A DNA stretch of 64,000 bases. Origin: Verrucomicrobiota bacterium (lineage in GTDB: Bacteria; Verrucomicrobiota; Verrucomicrobiia; Verrucomicrobiales; DEV007). A program made the position numbers and the translations under genes. Below, piece by piece: positions 30,046-41,443 of this stretch (positions are counted from its first letter, which is position 1; each line of letters begins with the position of its first letter). The notes under the pieces were generated by a model. That model was not told the DNA's origin. It did not search any database and saw nothing but the letters and a program-made list of their open reading frames with translations. Location of the stretch: contig JAJRVS010000001.1 in NCBI GenBank assembly GCA_024277195.1, positions 1 to 64,000 on the forward strand. Reading direction: 5' to 3'.

Positions 30046-32859
30046 TTATTTTTCCTTTAAAAAGGGACCCGCTATGGCTTCTACCGTTTGGCTTGATTGT
30101 GAGCAAAGCTCGCCATCAGCGCTGGTGATCTGTGTGCTGAGGGTGTAGTTGCCGGGTGTGAGTTTGCTGGTATTCAGGACCAATTGGCTGCTATCGAGTA
30201 AACCTTGTTTTTGTGTGGCAAGGGTTTTTCCTTGTTTGTCCTTTAAGAGGCAAGTCACGGTATGGCTGCCTTTTTTGGTTGAGCTGAGACCGATGACATC
30301 AAAGCTGACGGTAAAATTTGCGGTGGGTAACAAGAGGATGCGTGAAGCTTCTACTCTGGAGATCAGGGGTTTTGAGGCGGCTAGCAATTTGGCTGAACCA
30401 ATTTCAAAAGTGATCGAGGTTTGATCCAGGTAATCAGCTTCGGCGATGAAGATCTGTAGGCTATTGATGTTTTTCCAAGGCTGGGAGCCCAAGGCGGTGG
30501 TGTCGATCAGTTCTTTGATGGAAAAACGTAGAGGAATCCAGACTCGTTGTTGGTCGCCGAGATCTTTTCTGATTTCGTAGAGCCGACCCGGTTCACCAAA
30601 ATTGCGAATACTGATACCTAACAGCGTTTTGTCATCGGCTACTTCGTCACGGTTGGAGTCGACGCGGATCATGAATTCGAGAAAGTCGTAAGTGCTCAGG
30701 TCCAGTTGGCCATCGGTAAAAATGCGACGAATCCTTGGCCAGCCAACCGGGTAGGCAGCGTCGCCACCTTCGCTGTGGTCAACTTTGATATTCCAGCGCA
30801 GGCCGGGTTTGTCGTCGGGGGAGGCGGCTTTTGATATTTCAGTTTTGCCCTCGATGGTTCCATTTTTCCACAGGGTGAAACCTTCGCCTATATCACGAGA
30901 AGTAACGATGCCTTTTTTGAACGCTTCATCGAGGATATTCTTGGTGGCAGCGATGGGTTTGGCCAGGGGTTTATTGATCAGAACAGAAGGAGCGTTGCCT
31001 TTTTTACTGACTGGGTAGGTGATGAGGTGTTGGATGGCGGTTGCCAGTTGCCAGCGACGGGCGGTGAATTCTTCTGAAGGCCACATGCCGTCGGATAGGT
31101 AACGTTGCTGCACTTGGATGGCGTCCCAGTTTTCCTGTAGGAGTTTTTTTGCATTGTTGACTTGTTTCAGGCATTCGGGGTCGCTTGAACCTTGGCGTTC
31201 GAATACGGCTTGCTGCAAAGTGTAAAGGTAACGTGCGTCGTCACGTCCTTCACGAAAGCACTCCCAGTAAATCGCTGGAATGATTTCCGCATTTTCGTCG
31301 ATGCGCATGCCGCAGCCTGATTGTTTGCTGCGCAGGTAATCAAAGGGGTCTGGAGCCATGGTCCACGACCAGTGCCAGGGAATGAGAGTGGTGTAACCGC
31401 TGCGCCAAAAGCCAAAACCGTAGGTCATGCGCCCGCCTTTGCACATCACCAAGCGATTTTTGCGTTCACCGGCATTGTGATTGGGGTAGCTCCAGTATTC
31501 GTGGCGCTTTTGCGCGATGATTCTTTCGTAAGGGATGGCGTAGGGCTGAGAGCACCAGACATCGACATAGGGGGCGTAGTCGAGGGCGTCGGGGGCGGTA
31601 GGGAATTTGGTGATGTAGGTGGGGATGCCTGCATCGTGAACGGCTTGATAGGTTTTGATGCCGAACTCCTTGTGGGAAGCTGCCACTTCATCGAGTGGGC
31701 AACAGATCATCGGAGGTAGGTCTCGGGCGATGCGGTCTTTTTCGAAATCCTTGAATAATCGAGTTAAGCGTTGGTAAAATTCTGGCGGTGGCATTTTATC
31801 AATTTTCCAGTGAGACTCTCTTTTTCCATCGGGGGTGGTGGCCCGGTAAATCTGGGCGATGGCATTGCCGCCTAGAACAGGGATGCGGCCTTTCATTCCA
31901 TTGGCGACCAAACGAGGAATTTCTTCTTCGTTTTGGATCAAGATTTTGCTGGCATCCTTGTTAGTGACCAGATAGAGCGTGGGGAATTGGTCGATGCCGT
32001 AGTCGCGCATCGCCTGGAATTCATTGGCGCTGGCTTTTTGGTAAAAAGCTTCGTCTTTGCCCAAATAGGTCGGGCGGTCGCGGGTTCGGTAATAAGCGGA
32101 ATAGTGTTTTCGAGGATCATTTTTCAAGGTGAATCCCAGCACGCGAAAATCCAGTGGGATGGTAGTTGTTTGGTCTGAGCGGTCGTCTTGAAGTGTTAAT
32201 TTGCCGCTGTAGATGCCGGCGGGGGTGTCGTCGGGGACGTGGACTTGAAGCCACCAGCGTTGGCTTTCGAAGGCGGGGGAACTGTGGGAGCTGACTTTTT
32301 CGAGCAGCTCGGGCACCCGGCGGTAGGTTTCGCGGGATGCGTAACGTGGGTAGCCTATATTCCAATAGGTCTACAATCTTACGGTGATTTGTGAGGATGT
32401 GATTTTGTTGCCATCCGGGCTAACAAGTTCGGAAACCTGTAAACGGAAGTTTTTAAGTTCACGCAGCGGGTATATGCTGAGTGTGACGGGTTCCCATTCT
32501 CCGGGCGTGGCGAATGCGCTTAGCTTGTCAGTGAGGCGTTCGCTGGGTAGAGGGTGGGTATTGGTGTGAACGGGCTCAGTGATCGGTCGGGTGAAGAGCA
32601 TGTAACCGCGTTTTTTTTCCTCTGCATTGGCGGTGGGTTTGGCAGCGGTTTCTACAAAAGGCATTTCAGTGTAGCCTGCTGGAACCGTTGTTTGTTTTCG
32701 CGCCAGGCGATTGGCTTGATCCGGGGAGGCGATGCTGGAGATGGTGATCAGTGTGACCGCGAGTAGTGAGAGATTGACACTGAAACGGCGAAAGTAGGGT
32801 TTGATGGAGAGGTTCACGCTTAATTCATAGCGCGGGGCTCTAGGATTACAAGAAGCCAT
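30046..32859 (-). pseudogene. DUF4091 glycoside-hydrolase-like exported protein, split by an in-frame TAG
   Basis: Two same-frame open stretches, 32859 to 32374 and 32370 to 30046, are separated only by a TAG at 32373-32371. Joined they give about 937 residues: a signal-peptide-like start (FSVNLSLLAVTLITISS), a beta-sandwich region (GEWEPVTLSIYPL) and the TIM-barrel-like DUF4091 domain (FTLKNDPRKHY, PFDYLRSKQSGCGMRIDENAE), then a C-terminal beta-rich part. Translation runs straight through the stop (TVRL, then TYWNIGYPRY and VPELLEKV), so a point mutation, sequence error or read-through is more likely than two genes. The family is linked to polysaccharide degradation. Confidence 0.8.
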
Positions 32860-32921
32860 TGGCGTAGGAAAGATGAATTGTCATTTGCTCGAAGGCGCGG
32901 GGCGTGGGAGACTCTGGCAGG

Positions 32922-33680
32922 ATGAAAATTGGACAGGTTCGTTACAGGAGAGAGTTTGGGGTGGGAACGCTGTGGGCGCTGGTCACGGTGTTGGGGCTGG
33001 CTTGTTTGCTTGCGCTACCAGCAGCAAGGGCGGCGGATGGAGATAAAAACAAAGGATCTTCGTTGGGCGGGCTTTTGGATAGCCTGAAAGATCTCAAGGT
33101 GCCGGATTCGGTGGCTAAATTTCCAGAGCAGTTAAAGGAGCTGAAAGATGCTTATCTGAAAACAGCAAAAACGGTCGAAGAGTTGCAGAAGGAAGTCGAA
33201 ATTTTGCGCCAGGAGGTGAAAGTTTTGCGAGAAGAACAGGCTCAGGTAAAAAAATCGCAGCTTTCGGAAATTAAAACCGGGACGTCGGCTTTGCAGGTGC
33301 AGGAGGTGACGGCAGAGCAGTTGGTGGCCGCTTTTGCGGAGGACAGTGTATCTGCCAAGCAGAATTTCAAGCAGCGTTATATCAAGGTGCAGGGTGCGAT
33401 ACAGAGTTTTGAAACCGGAGCCAAGGAGATTGTGATTTTTTTGCGAGCGGACAGTTCGGATTCCAGAGTGAAGTGCAGCTTTAAGCGTGATAATAATTTT
33501 CATGTGGAAGTGGTTGCCAGTCAGGGAAGGTTGGTGAGTCGCAATGACCGCACGACCTTATTGACCGTGGGACAGCCGGTGACTATCGTGGGAACCTGTA
33601 CGGGTAAGGATATCGATGTCACTCTAGTGAACTGCCACATGGAGGGACTCGATTCGAAAAGGGAAAAGGAGAGTGAGTGA
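32922..33680 (+). CDS. Exported coiled-coil protein with OB-fold (tRNA_anti-like) domain
   Basis: About 252 residues from the ATG at 32922 (a GTG at 32904 is also in frame). A signal peptide ends near PAARAAD. Residues about 50-105 are a heptad-rich coiled coil (VEELQKEVEILRQEVKVLREEQ). The C-terminal ~125 residues match the tRNA_anti-like OB-fold family (VTAEQLVAAFAEDS, YIKVQGAIQSF, GQPVTIVGTC), typical of putative lipoproteins of unknown ligand. The 3' end overlaps the start of the PAP2 gene by 8 nt, so translation is probably coupled. Confidence 0.65.
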   Translation: MKIGQVRYRREFGVGTLWALVTVLGLACLLALPAARAADGDKNKGSSLGGLLDSLKDLKVPDSVAKFPEQLKELKDAYLKTAKTVEELQKEVEILRQEVKVLREEQAQVKKSQLSEIKTGTSALQVQEVTAEQLVAAFAEDSVSAKQNFKQRYIKVQGAIQSFETGAKEIVIFLRADSSDSRVKCSFKRDNNFHVEVVASQGRLVSRNDRTTLLTVGQPVTIVGTCTGKDIDVTLVNCHMEGLDSKREKESE

Positions 33681-35100
33681 GCAGGTTGCTAATAAAAAGC
33701 AGCAGGCGTGCGGCTGTTGGTCACGGGCATTAGCTTGGGATTTCGTTTTGCCATTTGGGCTGGTGGTGGTTTTGACCTTGTTCATGGCCATGGGGGATCG
33801 CGAGTTGGCTTGGCACAAGACGCTTTATGACTTTGATCAACAAAGTTGGATTTATGGTGATGCGGGCTTTTGGAGATTTTTGTATCGAGTGTCCTCGATT
33901 CCTGCGCTAATAGTGGTGATCTTGGCAGCGGCGCTGTATGTTGGCAGTTTTAAGCTGAGGAGTTGGGGGCCTTATCGAAAGGTTTCGCTGTATTTGATTT
34001 TGTTGGTGGCAGTGGCTCCGGGTTTGCTGGTGAATTTGGTTTTTAAAGAGCACTGGGGACGTCCCCGGCCCAGGGAGATCACGGAATTTGGTGGCCGCTA
34101 CGCTTTTGAATCGGTGCTTGATCCGGATCCCGAAAGTGATGGAAAATCCTTTCCCTGCGGGCACGCGTCCATGGCTTTTTATTTTGTCGCCGGGTGGTTC
34201 ATTTTGAGAAGGCGGCGGCGTGGCGGGGCTTTCATTTTTCTTTAGGGGAGCTTGGTTTTTGGGGGAGTAGTGGGTTATGTGCGGATGCTACAGGGCGGGC
34301 ATTTTGCCACGGATGTGTTGTGGGCGGGGGCGGTGACTTATTTTACCGCAGCGGGCTTGTTTTACTTGATGGGGCTGAGTCAAGAATTGTTGCCTGACCC
34401 CTTTTTGGAGAAGGCGGGGGCGCGGCGTATTCCTTTGGGGGTTAAGTTGGGTGGGGGTTTTGTGATGTTGGGAATGGTGGCGGCGGTTTTGGTGGCGACG
34501 CCTTACGAAGCGGACCGGGATCGGGTGGCGCGTTATGATTCGGAGGGAGAGAAGAATCTGAGAGTGACTTTTTCGACTTATGCCGGGGATGTGCATTTTG
34601 TTACGGGGAATATTTTTTCGATCAAGGGCAAGGTTTTTGGACACGGAGTTCCGACTGCGGGTATAACCGAGAGTTGGCGGGAGGAAGATGACAGAGAGTT
34701 GTACGTGCTGCGCTACAAACAGCGTCTGAGCGGTTGGTTTTCTGAGATCGGTCAGCAGTTGAAGGTGACGGTGCCGTGGCGGCGGGTGGAGTCTTTTTTA
34801 CTTGAAGCGGGGTCGGGCAAGATGACTTTTGAATTGCCTCGTCCTGATCAAGCGCAGACGATTCGTCTGGTTGCGGGCGGACAATGTGAGCTTGAGCTGC
34901 GCTTGGCTGAGGATGTTGTTTTGTGGTTGCCGGATCCGCAATGGTTGGAAATTGATAGCAGCCTGATGAAAACAGCGGCGCTGCGTTTGGGAGGAGATCG
35001 TCCCCGGGTGAGCGGGTTGATTACTTTGAAAAAAAGTGAGAAACCCTCCGTCGAGGATGGGCAAAAGGTGCGGATTAAAATTGTGCCAGCTGGCAGGTGA
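33673..35100 (+). pseudogene. PAP2-family membrane phosphatase, split by an in-frame TAG between catalytic motifs
   Basis: From a GTG at 33673 (AAGGAG close upstream) the frame runs to a TAG at 34243-34245 and continues in the same frame to 35100, about 475 codons in all. The first part has phosphatase motif C1 (KEHWGRPRP) and C2 (FPCGHAS); motif C3 (VRMLQGGHFATD) lies only beyond the stop. A normal PAP2 enzyme needs all three, so the fragment before the stop cannot work alone. After the membrane domain come ~190 residues of a soluble exported region. Probably a phospholipid or undecaprenyl-pyrophosphate phosphatase in its intact state. Cause could be mutation, sequence error or read-through. 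Confidence 0.82.
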
Positions 35101-35289
35101 TTTTTGTCATCAGTGAGTTAGGGCCGCTACAAAAATAAAACACCCCAAATTACTTGCCTTTTTGATCTCCATCTGCATTTGAATTTTCTCAAATAGCTTG
35201 CTATTATCGAAAGTCTCGCCTTGATGAAAATCAAAAATTCTGCGCATTTTTGGGTATCTATTAATTGCCGCTACCCTTAGATTGCAAGC

Positions 35290-36243
35290 ATGTGGATGAC
35301 TATTGGATCGGTGAGATGCGGCGTGATGGGGATCATGTTGGCGGTAGTTTGTTGCCCGTGGGGGAAGGTTTGTCTGGCAGAGGAAACGACGGGTAAAAAA
35401 AAGGAGAAAACACCGCCGGCTTGGTTGAAGGCGGTCACTTTGTTGAAAGCGGGCAATGAACCGGCGCTGAAGCCCTGTCGTCTGGGCTATAGTTTGAGTT
35501 GGAATAATTTGATCAATGCCGGCGAAGTGACCATCGTGATGCGTGATGAAGATCCTTCAGGTAAGCCATCGAGCGAGATTTTAACGGGAGCGGCAAGTGC
35601 ACGCAGTTCGGGGGCTGTGCGTTTGTTGTGGGCTTATGACTGTGAGTTGAAATCCAAGGTGGACAGGGCGACGCTGCGTCCTCTGTGGTTCGAGCATTCT
35701 GAAACGGAGAATAAGGAAACGGTGTCTTATCGAACGGATTTCAAATCGGACCGAGTGGTGACGTTAAGTTATGAAACCGATGCAGAAACGGGGAAGTTAA
35801 AAACTAAAAAACGCACTTTTAAATACCCTCACGTATTTGATTTATTGTCTGCCATTTTGTGCTTACGCAGCTTGCCGTTAAAAAATGGAGAAACGTTGAC
35901 TGGCGTGGTGCAACCTTTTGATACGCCTTACCTAGTGAGCTTTGAAGTCCAGGGTAGAGAGAAACGGGACTATTTGGGAGAGAAAAAAAATACGATCAGA
36001 TTGGGGGTCAAGGTACAGAAGATCAACAAGGATTTGTCTTTGAAAAAATACAAAAAAATGAAAACTGCGACCTTGTGGGTGAGTGAGGATGAGTATCGCC
36101 TGCCTTTGGAACTGCGCGCCGACATCTTTGTGGGTTATGTCGCGGCGACTTTGATCGAGCGGAAATTTTTGTCCGGAACGAAGACGGAAAAAGCGGCCAA
36201 AGTGAAGCAGGCTCCGAAGGTGGAGGCTAAAAAGGTTGAGTAG
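35290..36243 (+). CDS. DUF3108 family exported protein
   Basis: 317 residues with a signal peptide (GIMLAVVCCPWGKVCLA). The body matches DUF3108: a beta-strand LGYSLSWNNLINAGEVTI start, then SYRTDFKSDRVVTLSYE, then HVFDLLSAILCLRSLPL and a lipid-carrier-like barrel pattern. The Lys-rich C-terminal tail is low complexity. Function unknown; the family is periplasmic. A 189-base AT-rich gap precedes it, in which I see no gene. Convergent with the acidic-tail gene downstream. Confidence 0.7.
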   Translation: MWMTIGSVRCGVMGIMLAVVCCPWGKVCLAEETTGKKKEKTPPAWLKAVTLLKAGNEPALKPCRLGYSLSWNNLINAGEVTIVMRDEDPSGKPSSEILTGAASARSSGAVRLLWAYDCELKSKVDRATLRPLWFEHSETENKETVSYRTDFKSDRVVTLSYETDAETGKLKTKKRTFKYPHVFDLLSAILCLRSLPLKNGETLTGVVQPFDTPYLVSFEVQGREKRDYLGEKKNTIRLGVKVQKINKDLSLKKYKKMKTATLWVSEDEYRLPLELRADIFVGYVAATLIERKFLSGTKTEKAAKVKQAPKVEAKKVE

Positions 36244-36267
36244 GGAGCTTGGGTATTTTTTGTTGAA

Positions 36268-36948
36268 TCAGCTGGAAGTGATTTCTTCATTTTCTGCTTC
36301 AACTTCGACTTCAATTTCTTCGGTATCAGATTCTGCTAAGTCACCGTCGGAAGCCTGGTCTCCTGTGGTTTCGGAGTCTGCAGCAGCGGCATCTTGCTCG
36401 CCAGCCTCTGGGTCGGAGGGGTTGTTTTCCTGTTGAGTATTGTTTTGGTCGAGTAAGAGGGACACCTCTTGCTGCACGGCCTCGACTTCGTCGAGTTTCA
36501 GTTGCGGGTCACGGACGACGAGCACGTCGCCGCTGGCGCGGTGTTCGTAGAGTAACAATCGGCTGGATTCGGTTTCTTTTACTCCCACGGGGATGAGGGC
36601 CTTTTTGCGCTCGAGCATGAGAGTGAGGATATAACGGGCGTTTTCTGTGCAGGCTTCGTCTTCTTCGATCATGCGGCGCAGCATGGTTTCAGCCGATTCA
36701 TTGCCAAGCACTTCGGGCGAGGTATCTTCTTTGGGGTATTTGCAGGTGGTTTTCCAGAAGGAGAAGGGCTCCAGGGTATCACTGAGGTCTTCCCAAGCGG
36801 CTTCGGAAAAGTCTTTTCTCAGGAAACCTTCATTTTCCGGATCGTCAAAAATACAGGTGTAGAAGGATTGGCCATCAGCAAACTTCTCCCCGCTGTGGGT
36901 GCATTTGCTGTGCCGGCGGCTGATTTTCCAGTCTTTTTGAATGGCCAT
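36268..36948 (-). CDS. Conserved hypothetical protein with a long acidic tail
   Basis: 226 residues from the ATG at 36948; the open frame extends to 37338 but that stretch is the shadow of the LptG-like gene. A basic start (MAIQKDWKISRRHSKC) precedes a folded part with two early Cys (C-x15-C), then a helical segment (ETMLRRMIEEDEACTENARY). The last ~60 residues are almost only Asp, Glu, Ser, Ala and Gln, so disordered. I do not recognise the family. It lies 56 nt after the LptG-like gene on the same strand. Confidence 0.55.
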   Translation of the reverse strand: MAIQKDWKISRRHSKCTHSGEKFADGQSFYTCIFDDPENEGFLRKDFSEAAWEDLSDTLEPFSFWKTTCKYPKEDTSPEVLGNESAETMLRRMIEEDEACTENARYILTLMLERKKALIPVGVKETESSRLLLYEHRASGDVLVVRDPQLKLDEVEAVQQEVSLLLDQNNTQQENNPSDPEAGEQDAAAADSETTGDQASDGDLAESDTEEIEVEVEAENEEITSS

Positions 36949-37004
36949 GGTGCAAGGTCTGAAATGAAAAAATATAAAGTAAGTGGCTTGGAAGAGCGGA
37001 ATTA

Positions 37005-38786
37005 CTAAGCTGAACTTAGATTGAAAAGTTTGCGAAAATAACTGCCGTTCAAAATGGACTTGATGGTGGGGGGTTGCCGGTTTTGTGATCGGTAGTAGAG
37101 CAGCATGGCTCCGATGATAGCAAAGATAAAGTTGGTGGCCCAAGCGGCGATGAAGGGGGGCAGTTGTCCGTTTTGGCCAAAGGCTAGAAAAGTGCCGCGC
37201 AGAAGATACATGCTGGCAAAAATAAAGATCGACGCAGCCACTCCTCCGAGCACTCCACGGCGGGAGTAAACGATGCCCAATGGCGCTGAGACTAGAACCA
37301 TCACCAGACAGCTCAGTGGCTCGGCCCAGCAATACCACCAGTTAGTTCGATAGGGCGCCAGCTGTTTGCGGTCATAATCAGCGTTGGTTCTTAGATAGGT
37401 GGTAAGTCCCGGTATGCCCATATGTTCGGGATTGAGGGAAGCGCTGACTACTTTCCACGGGGTTTCGCGCCAGCCGGGGATTTCCATCGATTCCCACGAT
37501 TGGATTTTAGGGATGCCGTCAGGACCGTAGGTGTAGGTCTTGCCTCGGTAGAGTTTCCAGGTGCGGTTGCCAAAAAACCAGGTGGCGGAGTTACCTCGCC
37601 AACTGGTGAGCAGGTTTTGCTCCTTGTCGAACTGCCAGATGGCTACAGAGCCCATGGTTTTCCGGGTGAAATCGAGCGGTACGCGACCGACAAACCAAGT
37701 GCGGCGATCCACTGGGTTGACATACATCCAGCCTAGCTTGGACCAGCGGGCAGATTTTTTCTTTTTTCTTTTTTTGCTATTGCCCTGATTGTCTTCTTGA
37801 AAGCTGCCATCACGGACGGCTTGTAGCAAAGCTACTTTGCTGCCTTCGGATCTGGGTGCCCAGTCGTATTTGAATACCAGACAGATCAGCGAGGCGTAGA
37901 GGCCGATGATGAAAAGAGGGCGTAATATACGCATCATGCTGCGCCCGGCTCCCAGCATCGAGATCAATTCGTTGGAGGCGGACATACGGCTGAGGGCGTA
38001 GAGTAGCGATAGCAGCAGCGTGACCGGCAAGACAAAAAGAATGACCTGGGGCAGTTGGATCAAATAAAATTCCAGGATGGTGCCGAGACTGGCTTTGGCT
38101 GAGACAAAATCGGGGCCGTTGTTGGTGAGATCGGAAATCAGCCAGATGGCAATAAAGCCGATGAGGGTGAAGGTGAAGGGCAGGAGAAAGGTTCGCACCA
38201 CATATTGATCCATGATGCTGGAGCGGAAGTGCAAACGGGCCATTAGTGGAAAACTGAGAATAAGAGTGGCGATCAAGAACAGTTTGCCGAGATAAGCGAC
38301 CACCGAAGGGTCCTCGCCGATGCGGCTGACCAATACAGAGCGAAAATTGGTGGTGTAATCTGTTGGCAGCCACGCGACCAGCACTCCGATGGCGGCGATC
38401 CAGAGAACCAGTTGGGTGCTTCGACTGCGACGAATGGATGACACTTTTCTTTTACGCTGATTATAGAGAGAGATGGACAGCCCTAGGGCGACGATGAGCG
38501 CACCCAGGGTTTGGGCAAGAGCTATGCTGATGGGAGGGGTGTCGCTGGGGTGGACTTGTCCTACTTTCAGTTTTTGCTGGTGTTCTTCGCACAGATCGGA
38601 ATAAATATTCCAGGAGTCGATGCTGAATGAGATCATCGCCAGCAGGATCACACTAAGGCTGAGTTGCAACCACAGGGCACGAAAATTCCATGTTTGCGTG
38701 CGTTGAGCCAAGCTGGAAGAGAGCTTGGTCAAGCGGGCAATAATAGGATGTTTTAGAATTTTCTTGATCATTGCGTGGTTAACCAT
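37005..38786 (-). CDS. LptF/LptG-family permease with an extra N-terminal four-helix region
   Basis: About 593 residues from the ATG at 38786 (ATG at 38771 also possible). From roughly residue 205 it reads as a standard LptG/LptF permease (MDQYVVRTFLLPFTFTLIGF, SASNELISMLGAG, then the periplasmic jellyroll and three C-terminal helices), the inner-membrane part of the LPS export machine. E. coli LptG has about 360 residues; the surplus ~200 at the N-terminus hold four more predicted helices (residues about 30-55, 80-105, 115-135, 160-185), which I cannot match to a family. No lptF or lptB is adjacent. Confidence 0.83.
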   Translation of the reverse strand: MVNHAMIKKILKHPIIARLTKLSSSLAQRTQTWNFRALWLQLSLSVILLAMISFSIDSWNIYSDLCEEHQQKLKVGQVHPSDTPPISIALAQTLGALIVALGLSISLYNQRKRKVSSIRRSRSTQLVLWIAAIGVLVAWLPTDYTTNFRSVLVSRIGEDPSVVAYLGKLFLIATLILSFPLMARLHFRSSIMDQYVVRTFLLPFTFTLIGFIAIWLISDLTNNGPDFVSAKASLGTILEFYLIQLPQVILFVLPVTLLLSLLYALSRMSASNELISMLGAGRSMMRILRPLFIIGLYASLICLVFKYDWAPRSEGSKVALLQAVRDGSFQEDNQGNSKKRKKKKSARWSKLGWMYVNPVDRRTWFVGRVPLDFTRKTMGSVAIWQFDKEQNLLTSWRGNSATWFFGNRTWKLYRGKTYTYGPDGIPKIQSWESMEIPGWRETPWKVVSASLNPEHMGIPGLTTYLRTNADYDRKQLAPYRTNWWYCWAEPLSCLVMVLVSAPLGIVYSRRGVLGGVAASIFIFASMYLLRGTFLAFGQNGQLPPFIAAWATNFIFAIIGAMLLYYRSQNRQPPTIKSILNGSYFRKLFNLSSA

Positions 38787-38943
38787 CGCATTCAACGAGC
38801 GGTGTAGCCGTTGTGCGGCTTGCGAGCACTGAATGAGATGGAATGGTGCGCGAGCGGGGGCATCGGGTCAAGTGCTTGTTGGAAAAAGCGCGAGGTCAGG
38901 TAAGGTTCTGCATGGCTCTCTGGAATCTCCAGGGTCGAGGCTC

Positions 38944-39477
38944 TTAGTTGGCGGTCATGTCGAGCAGCTCTTCACGTTGTTTGGGCAGATGGCCAAAAGT
39001 GTTGGAGATGCTGGTAGCGGGGGTGCAGGTGGGGTGGATGACGCCGAGGTGGCGGGCGAGTTCTTTTTCAAAATGCAGCACGGCACGTCGTGTGGGTTGG
39101 TTTTGATCGAGGTATTCGAGCGCGCGTTCGAGAAGATCTGCGAGATCCGGGATGGGGGTAGCGGATTCAGCTACGCGTTCGATCAATTTTACGAAATAAG
39201 AGGCTGCGAGGGTTTGTAGATAAGATCCGCGGATGCCGAGGCGGGTGCGCAAGACGGAAATATCTTTCAGAATGTGGAGGTCGCTCTTGCGGCTACGGAC
39301 AATTTCGATTTCGCAGTGGAAAAAAAGATCCAACTTGCCTGCAAAGCGGTTTTTGGGTCGCCGGGCACCCTTGGCGACGGTTTTGATCAAGCCCTGAGTG
39401 TCCGAGCACCAGTGAATGATCAGGCTGGTCTCGGTCAGCGGGAAACGGCGGATGAGATTGGCGGTGGTTTTTTCCAA
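38944..39477 (-). CDS. recO: DNA repair protein RecO (short form)
   Basis: 177 residues from a TTG; no ATG or GTG lies in frame upstream. The N-terminal OB-fold is recognisable (LIRRFPLTETSLIIHWCSD, GLIKTVAKGARRPKNRF), followed by the helical domain. E. coli RecO has 242 residues; this version is shorter and lacks a CxxC zinc motif. RecO loads RecA with RecR at single-strand gaps. Divergent from prfB. Confidence 0.8.
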   Translation of the reverse strand: MEKTTANLIRRFPLTETSLIIHWCSDTQGLIKTVAKGARRPKNRFAGKLDLFFHCEIEIVRSRKSDLHILKDISVLRTRLGIRGSYLQTLAASYFVKLIERVAESATPIPDLADLLERALEYLDQNQPTRRAVLHFEKELARHLGVIHPTCTPATSISNTFGHLPKQREELLDMTAN

Positions 39478-39608
39478 TGGTTTGTTCGGTTTAACGTCAG
39501 CTTGACAGGGGCTGGCAGTGAATACGATTTGCAGAATTTGATTCCGTGCCGAACAGTAGGGACGAATCGGCAGAGTGGGAACAATAACCTTCGTTTGGCT
39601 TTAAAAAA

Positions 39609-40703
39609 ATGGATTGGCAGGAAATAGATATCGACAAGTTGAAGGAGCGTCTCGACGGCTTGAAAAAATTCATGGATCTCCCTAAGTTGGAGACCCAGCT
39701 GTCTGGCTTGGAAGAAAAAATGACTGCCCAGGATTTTTGGGATGATAAGGATACTGCGCAGAAAACGGTGGCGGATGTTTCGCGAATCAAAGCGAGACTG
39801 ACTCCGATGCGGGCCTTGGATAGCCGCATGGGGGATCTGGAGGTATTGCTCGAGATGGCCGCGGATGATGAGGATAGTGCTGGCGAGGCGGCTACAGAAT
39901 ATGAGGTGTTGATGAGGGAATTGGATGCTTTTGAGTTGCAGACTTTGCTCAGTGGGCGCCATGACTCGGAGAATGCCTTTGTGACGATTCACTCGGGTGC
40001 CGGTGGCACGGAAGCTTGTGATTGGGCTGAGATGTTATTGCGCATGTATCAGCGCTGGGGCGAGCGTCGGGGATTTGGCGTGGAGATCGTGGATTTCCAA
40101 GGAGGTGAAGAAGTGGGGGTGCGTTCGGTGACTTTGAAGGTGGCTGGGGAAAATGCCTATGGCTATTTGAATAATGAAAACGGGGTGCATCGATTGGTGA
40201 GAATTTCCCCTTTTGATTCGCAAGCGCGCAGGCACACCTCGTTTGCCAGTCTGGATGTGGTTCCTGAGTTGGACGACGACGATGAGATTGAGGTTGAGGA
40301 CAAGGATTTGAGAATTGTTACCGCACGCAGTGGAGGCAAGGGCGGGCAGAATGTGAACAAGGTTGAGACGGCCGTTCACCTGACCCACATCCCTACAGGC
40401 ATCATTGTTCGTTGCAGTGCCGAGCGCAGTCAGCACAAAAACCGGGTATTGGCGATGAAATTGCTCAAAGCCAAGTTGTTCAAACTCGAGGAGGACAAAA
40501 AACGTTCAGAAATGGAACGTCAGTATGGGGAGAAAGGTGAGATCGCCTGGGGCAGTCAGATCCGGTCGTATGTTTTCCAGCCTTATCAAATGGCCAAGGA
40601 TCACCGCACCGGGCATGAAATGGGGAATATCCAGGATGTGATGGATGGCAATATCGACGGCTTTATTGAAGCGATGTTAAGAGGGCAAAAGCCGGAGAAA
40701 TAA
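39609..40703 (+). CDS. prfB: Peptide chain release factor 2
   Basis: 364 residues. GGQ at 245-247 ([12 protein letters not shown]) is the peptidyl-tRNA hydrolysis loop, and the anticodon-like tripeptide SPF ([14 protein letters not shown]) marks RF2, which reads UGA and UAA. The reading frame is continuous from ATG; the CUU-UGA programmed frameshift found in many prfB genes is absent at the matching position (AAA TTC ATG GAT). Starts downstream of a divergent recO. Confidence 0.96.
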
Positions 40704-40753
40704 GTGTAATTTCTGTTCGTTGTAGTTATCACTATAAGTTGAGGTTTTTCTAT

Positions 40754-41443
40754 ATGGGCGTTTACGAAGAAAAATATAAGCAGCTTTTCGATCTGGCACA
40801 GAGCCTTTGCAAAGACGAGTCTGACAGGATACATCGTATTGATGGTAAGGCTTCTCGATACATTTCAATATTAACGTTTTTTCTTGGCGTTTGCGTAATT
40901 TTTATTTGATTTGGCATTCCCGAAATTTGGCCATTGGATAATGTCTTGGACAAGAGCGTATTTGTCGTATTCAGCTTTGCCGTTTTCATATTACTTGTAG
41001 CTTGGTTCTTTTTGATTTTTGCTCTTCAGTTAGATGAGTTTGAATCAATTCAATTAGACATTCGAGCATTTGATGAAAATGACTTAGTGAATGTTCAATA
41101 CTCCTATACGCGCCATCTGGAGCACGCGATTGAGAACAATCGAGAAAAAGGAGGAAAGAAGGCTTGGAGGCTAGGGATTGGTTATAAGTTTATGGTGTTT
41201 GGGGTGCTTCTTTTGTTGATTTCTTCGGTTCTATTCCTTATCGTAACGTTACAAGGTATGTCAGAAGTAGAACAACAAACCCCACAAGTGCCAGCGTCCT
41301 CTGTTGAGAATGTCCAGATACCTAAGGTTGTGGATCTGAAGCCGAACGTAATTTTATCAGAAGGACATTCATTACACTTTTTTGCTAATGAACGTGAGGT
41401 GAAGCATCCAGAGCCTTCTGAAGCAAAGCCTGCGAGCGGTTGA
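40754..41443 (+). pseudogene. Small three-helix membrane protein, interrupted by an in-frame TGA
   Basis: ATG at 40754 has GAGG at 40741-40744. The frame gives 51 residues (MGVYEEKYKQLFDLAQS, then RIDGKASRYISIL and a first membrane helix), meets TGA at 40907-40909 and continues in the same frame to 41443. The rest has two more helices (VFVVFSFAVFILLVAWFF and FMVFGVLLLLISSVLFLIV) and a soluble tail. I do not recognise the family. The D-x-K-A-s-x helix start is seen in various small membrane proteins, including defence-linked ones, but evidence is weak. Base composition is more AT-rich than neighbours, which suggests acquisition. Confidence 0.6.

Follow-up and report, generated by a model that had tools for sequence, protein, structure and literature searches.

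Why should three genes within 11 kb of one bacterial contig each be broken by a single in-frame stop codon? The window, the whole stretch of DNA analysed here, comprises bases 1-64000 of a 97.5-kb contig (C32) of G000, a draft metagenome-assembled genome (MAG) of 5.49 Mb in 422 contigs with an estimated completeness of 95.55%. Comparisons were made chiefly with two genomes of the same genus (the sisters G001 and G002), and with two further sources of relatives of the first interrupted gene (L205, in which the gene runs to the contig end, and L206). Three mid-gene stops so close together are striking, yet the same genome carries others, and draft assemblies can produce such stops; the comparisons rule out recoding here. 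The best reading is that nonsense mutations arose recently and independently in genes that can be dispensed with, and we give it an even chance. The phenomenon looks ordinary, whether the genes were broken recently in the usual way or the bases were miscalled.

Three genes interrupted once

The three in-frame stops that an earlier note described in this DNA are present in the assembled sequence, and each time the reading frame carries on beyond the stop within one gene (Table 1). No frameshift was found within any of the three interrupted genes, and each locus looks like one gene interrupted once rather than a chance pair of ORFs.

Table 1. Interrupted genes, their in-frame stops and intact neighbours in the window.
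Feature	Coordinates	Strand	Remarks
GH123-like gene (DUF4091 in the earlier note), interrupted	30046..32859	-	one internal stop; uninterrupted orthologues in G001, G002
In-frame TAG of GH123-like gene	32371..32373	-	codon 163 of 938 (terminal stop included); inside GH123 N-terminal domain
OB-fold (tRNA_anti-like) gene, intact	32904..33680	+	overlaps PAP2 start
PAP2-superfamily phosphatase gene, interrupted	33673..35100	+	best NCBIfam model LpxF, below its cut-off
In-frame TAG of PAP2 gene	34243..34245	+	between PCGHAS and RMLQGGHFATD stretches
DUF3108 gene, intact	35290..36243	+	directly adjoins OB-fold gene in sister genomes
LptF/LptG gene, intact	37005..38795	-	control for relative rates
prfB (RF2), intact	39609..40703	+	one uninterrupted frame
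Small membrane-protein gene, AT-rich, interrupted	40754..41443	+	remote relative of phrog_23273
In-frame TGA of membrane-protein gene	40907..40909	+	residue 52; first hydrophobic stretch (judged by eye)

In the GH123-like protein, the GH123 N-terminal domain (PF22680) spans the stop when the frame is read through (residues 116-224, 37 bits against a cut-off of 27), and the two halves taken separately score below the cut-off, such that the domain passes only in the read-through translation. The profile searches returned no model named DUF4091, and the label of the earlier note is not confirmed. The orthologues in G001 and G002 are whole, with open frames 922 and 927 residues long, and share about 75% identity with the window's protein; the frame is also open over the aligned part in L205 and L206. 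Apparent internal stops in the G001 and G002 matches lie outside their open frames, and a TGA in the match from a more distant genome, G003, apparently terminates an adjacent ORF. The named relatives of the protein belong to MAGs that carry the label Verrucomicrobiota or Verrucomicrobiales and, in one case, Poribacteria. Under the standard code only the first 162 residues of the protein would be kept.

The PAP2 gene is likewise recognizable on both sides of its stop. Positions 2-75 of PF01569 match before the stop (46.3 bits, cut-off 27.2), and positions 86-126 match after it with a score that on its own lies below the cut-off. The score against the LpxF lipid A 4'-phosphatase model (NF045633) is 105.5 bits, short of the cut-off of 400. 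PAP2 matches occur in 24 of 57 genomes, G000 included, and among the matches listed only the window's copy has an internal stop. Of the near-invariant columns, the window's copy departs from 2 of 27 before the stop and from none of 13 after it. The truncated product would lose the third PAP2 motif, with the catalytic histidine. Neither sister genome has a PAP2 match; in both, the DUF3108 gene comes straight after the OB-fold gene, across a gap of about 25 bp in G001 (between mechanically set ORF ends) and of 88 bp in G002 (between match edges), and the PAP2 gene therefore appears dispensable.

Over residues 5-164 the read-through translation of the small membrane-protein gene matches phrog_23273 (E 1.2e-10), thus on both sides of the stop, and the standard code would end the protein within its first hydrophobic stretch. 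The gene sits in a dip of GC content (0.38 against 0.52). Its protein found matches in its own genome only, both among 57 genomes and among 387 genomes of the phylum, and the phrog_23273 profile, run against 190 relatives and the 387 phylum genomes, confirmed no homologue outside that genome. No homologue was confirmed in genome contigs, phages, plasmids or viral contigs, and the fetched G001 contig holds no match, though prfB and its flank are conserved there. On these searches the membrane gene is lineage-specific.

In the window prfB forms a single frame without the programmed frameshift that is known in this gene from many bacteria.

Earlier codons and rates of change

The earlier note held all three stops to be compatible with a common origin, a single G-to-A change of a tryptophan codon (TGG). 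The codons aligned to the GH123-like TAG are CAA in G001, CAG in G002, CAG in L205 and GCT in L206, and the distant G003 homologue, left out of the codon comparison at 37% identity, has valine at this position. Because the relatives have glutamine three times, alanine and valine, the tryptophan origin fails at this site; the aligned codons point to glutamine as the likely earlier residue. The PAP2 stop falls in a variable, mostly hydrophobic column, occupied in 19 aligned homologues by V, A, I, L, M, W, F, T or S, with tryptophan in two of the 19, so a TGG origin is possible there and not favoured. For the membrane protein, which has no alignable homologue among those searched, the proposal is unsupported. 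The earlier note also took a sense codon in relatives to indicate a consensus error. Relatives do have sense codons at the GH123-like and PAP2 sites, but this result is expected of a recent mutation as much as of an error.

Several comparisons bear on relaxed selection in the GH123-like gene. With L205 used to polarise the changes, 45 protein changes fall on the G000 branch and 21 and 26 on those of the sisters; with the changes of the inner branch counted among those of the sisters, 45 is no longer unusual (p 0.26 and 0.59). Lineage-only changes in G000, G001 and G002 number 92, 59 and 60 in the GH123-like protein; for five intact neighbours the counts are 95, 93 and 184. The overall contrast with the neighbours (p 9e-6) comes mostly from fast neighbours in G002, and against G001 alone it has p 0.06. 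Downstream of the stop, pairwise dN/dS is 0.152/1.66 and 0.152/2.38 in the pairs that include G000 and 0.11/1.26 between the sisters, with dS near saturation, and is not raised in the G000 pairs relative to the sister pair. Taken together, these sequence comparisons are inconclusive, and the signs of faster evolution would lend decay weak support.

In-frame stops elsewhere in the genome

The earlier note named local gene decay as one option and proposed a search of the genome for further in-frame stops. For such a scan, 1205 kb of G000, 1112 kb of G001 and 10.8 kb of G002 were fetched, and a site was counted where a stop lies in a coding-like frame that aligns on both sides to another protein. 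Most of the raw tblastn stop hits (42 in G000, 14 in G001) proved to be antisense shadows, and this filtered scan took their place. It returned 6 interrupted genes in about 489 kb of G000 coding sequence (C13:7012 TAG, C159:753 TAA, C282:7010 TAA, C288:5916 TAA, C32:32371 TAG and C372:30379 TAG) and 2 sites in about 481 kb of G001. The C282 and C288 sites are weaker, resting on paralogues of less than 40% identity with gaps near the site. In G001, g1_L124:6769 (TAG) is convincing, and the second site, g1C131, resembles the ordinary terminus of a gene. The difference between the genomes is not significant, whether counted as 6 against 1 (p 0.125), as 6 against 2 (p 0.29) or, without the two weak G000 sites, as 4 against 1 (p 0.38). 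Similar interruptions lie on other contigs of G000, and decay confined to this locality does not fit. Frameshift candidates number 3 in G000 and 0 in G001, fewer in G000 than the stops. Where genes have close orthologues, interruptions are about as dense (3 in 219 kb) as in the remaining genes (3 in 269 kb). Near-identical duplicates, sought as a gauge of error, yielded none of use.

A coding-potential scan gave 26 candidates in 509 kb of G000 and 15 in 328 kb of G001, of which 15 and 6, respectively, were translated. It added three G000 sites that are convincing by eye (C372:18236, C41:30114 and C68:7126). At least one G001 candidate, g1_L103:4581, could be real, and the scan therefore allows no comparison between the two genomes. 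A database check identified the C372:18236 gene as a cyanophycinase of the peptidase S51 family; for the other by-eye sites we assume Rhs-like and alcohol-dehydrogenase labels.

The homology scan recovered only one of the three stops in the window (C32:32371), and true interruption rates are for that reason probably higher than those scanned. This recovery gives the factor of three between the homology-detected rate of 1.2 per 100 kb and a rate of 3.6 per 100 kb. The probability of at least three stops in 64 kb is 0.045 at the lower rate and 0.41 at the higher. For three stops within 8.54 kb, it is 0.004 and 0.066 per 64-kb window, with about 0.3 and 5.7 windows that tight expected per genome, respectively. 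These count and spacing probabilities are to be read with the fact that the window was picked as odd-looking. Should 3.6 per 100 kb be the true rate of the genome, three stops in one window are not exceptional.

Combining the scan, the by-eye sites and the window's other two stops gives 11 G000 sites, of which 6 are TAG, 4 TAA and 1 TGA. TAG is more frequent here than among normal terminators (p 0.004), which is the wrong null for mutation; the codon-usage expectation for random single substitutions is 0.41 TAG, 0.39 TAA and 0.19 TGA, and the 11 sites fit it. A specific excess or tolerance of amber codons, suggested by a majority of TAG among the earliest additional sites, was rejected, as TAA sites appeared with more sequence and 6 of 11 fits 0.41.

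At about 7012 of C13 (L157), a gene with a match to the hydrazine synthase alpha middle domain (PF18582) is broken by TAG, and its product shares 85% identity over 818 residues with a G001 protein. On the minus strand of C68 (L068, 7126-8026), a gene for what we take to be an alcohol dehydrogenase is divided over two frames and contains an in-frame TAA in addition.

Nonsense mutation, base-call error and read-through

Several observations bear on how the stops arose. Under recent nonsense mutation, each gene would independently have acquired one nonsense substitution, the organism would be able to do without the gene, and translation by the standard code would end at each stop. The three genes would then be young pseudogenes and part of a thin scatter across the genome. 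The absence of PAP2 from the sister genomes and the lineage-specific membrane gene count for such decay. The loci resemble recent bacterial pseudogenes with a single nonsense change, having one in-frame stop, an otherwise intact frame and dispensable genes, and, for two of the three (the GH123-like and PAP2 genes), uninterrupted orthologues or homologues in relatives. We saw no feature that differs from such pseudogenes. The stops are seen in the assembly; that they are also present in living cells of the population and inactivate the genes is inferred.

Alternatively, the stops could be consensus base-call errors of the draft MAG, with the genes intact in the organism, a reading that we judge somewhat short of an even chance. 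The larger number of interrupted genes in G000 than in G001 (one of the two G001 sites being convincing) agrees with this alternative, though not significantly, as does the preponderance of stops over frameshift candidates (6 to 3). If all 6 scan sites were errors, about 3e-4 wrong bases per base would be implied. Error would also make stops equally dense whether or not a gene has close orthologues. It fits with a PAP2 sequence that is undecayed past its stop (13 of 13 near-invariant columns kept), and the unraised dN/dS after the GH123-like stop suits error or a very recent change alike. According to Cooley and Wright (2024; PMC11017572), the main effect of low-quality reads is to introduce internal stops, and low coverage raises the number of spurious pseudogenes; their report counts in favour of error. 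As in that account of draft assemblies, internal stops exceed frameshift candidates in this 422-contig MAG, and sites are more numerous than in a related assembly, here not significantly. Against error stands the choice of genes, as the broken genes of the window are patchy or lineage-specific and the core genes prfB and LptF/LptG are intact, in what is a small sample.

The stops might instead be leaky or regulated, kept as a brake on expression that lets some full-length protein through, to which we assign a small chance. A more specific form, a low-efficiency brake on accessory surface and membrane genes of this lineage that would still yield a little full-length protein, has a marginally smaller one. 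The frames past the GH123-like and PAP2 stops do stay conserved, but a recent mutation or an error gives the same downstream conservation. Belinky et al. (2021; PMC7918605) argue that many bacterial in-frame stops are under purifying selection, and they infer read-through from such selection around the stops, with a focus on stops shared between species. Their argument counts in favour of read-through, and the present stops resemble theirs in that the sequence downstream is conserved and the GH123-like TAG stands where relatives have CAG or CAA. Unlike the species-shared stops on which they focused, the GH123-like and PAP2 stops occur in no relative examined. The stop codons and following bases also differ across the three sites. 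Nor did the search for suppressor tRNAs proposed in the earlier note supply a decoder, as none of 51 Rfam tRNA matches, with anticodons assigned by ARAGORN, has a stop anticodon (CTA, TCA or TTA); this survey scored 150 of 237 first-look candidates.

A genome-wide reassignment of TAG, TGA or both as sense codons, already thought unlikely in the earlier note, is scarcely credible and was rejected: nothing beyond the stops themselves speaks for it, and against it stand intact prfA (463 bits) and prfB genes, the use of TAG and TGA as terminators of 135 and 379, respectively, of 815 long coding-like segments, the lack of stop-anticodon tRNAs among the matches, the absence of internal stops from the best-ranked sulfatase matches listed for 13 genomes, and the occurrence of TAA interruptions as well.

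The tRNA survey also brought up a tRNA-like array on the minus strand of C68 (L068, 13308-16020), in which 11 elements score above the Rfam gathering threshold and several have unusual sequences. The array adjoins a below-threshold match to YrlA-like RNA and an ORF, whose product we take to be a TROVE/Ro60 protein.
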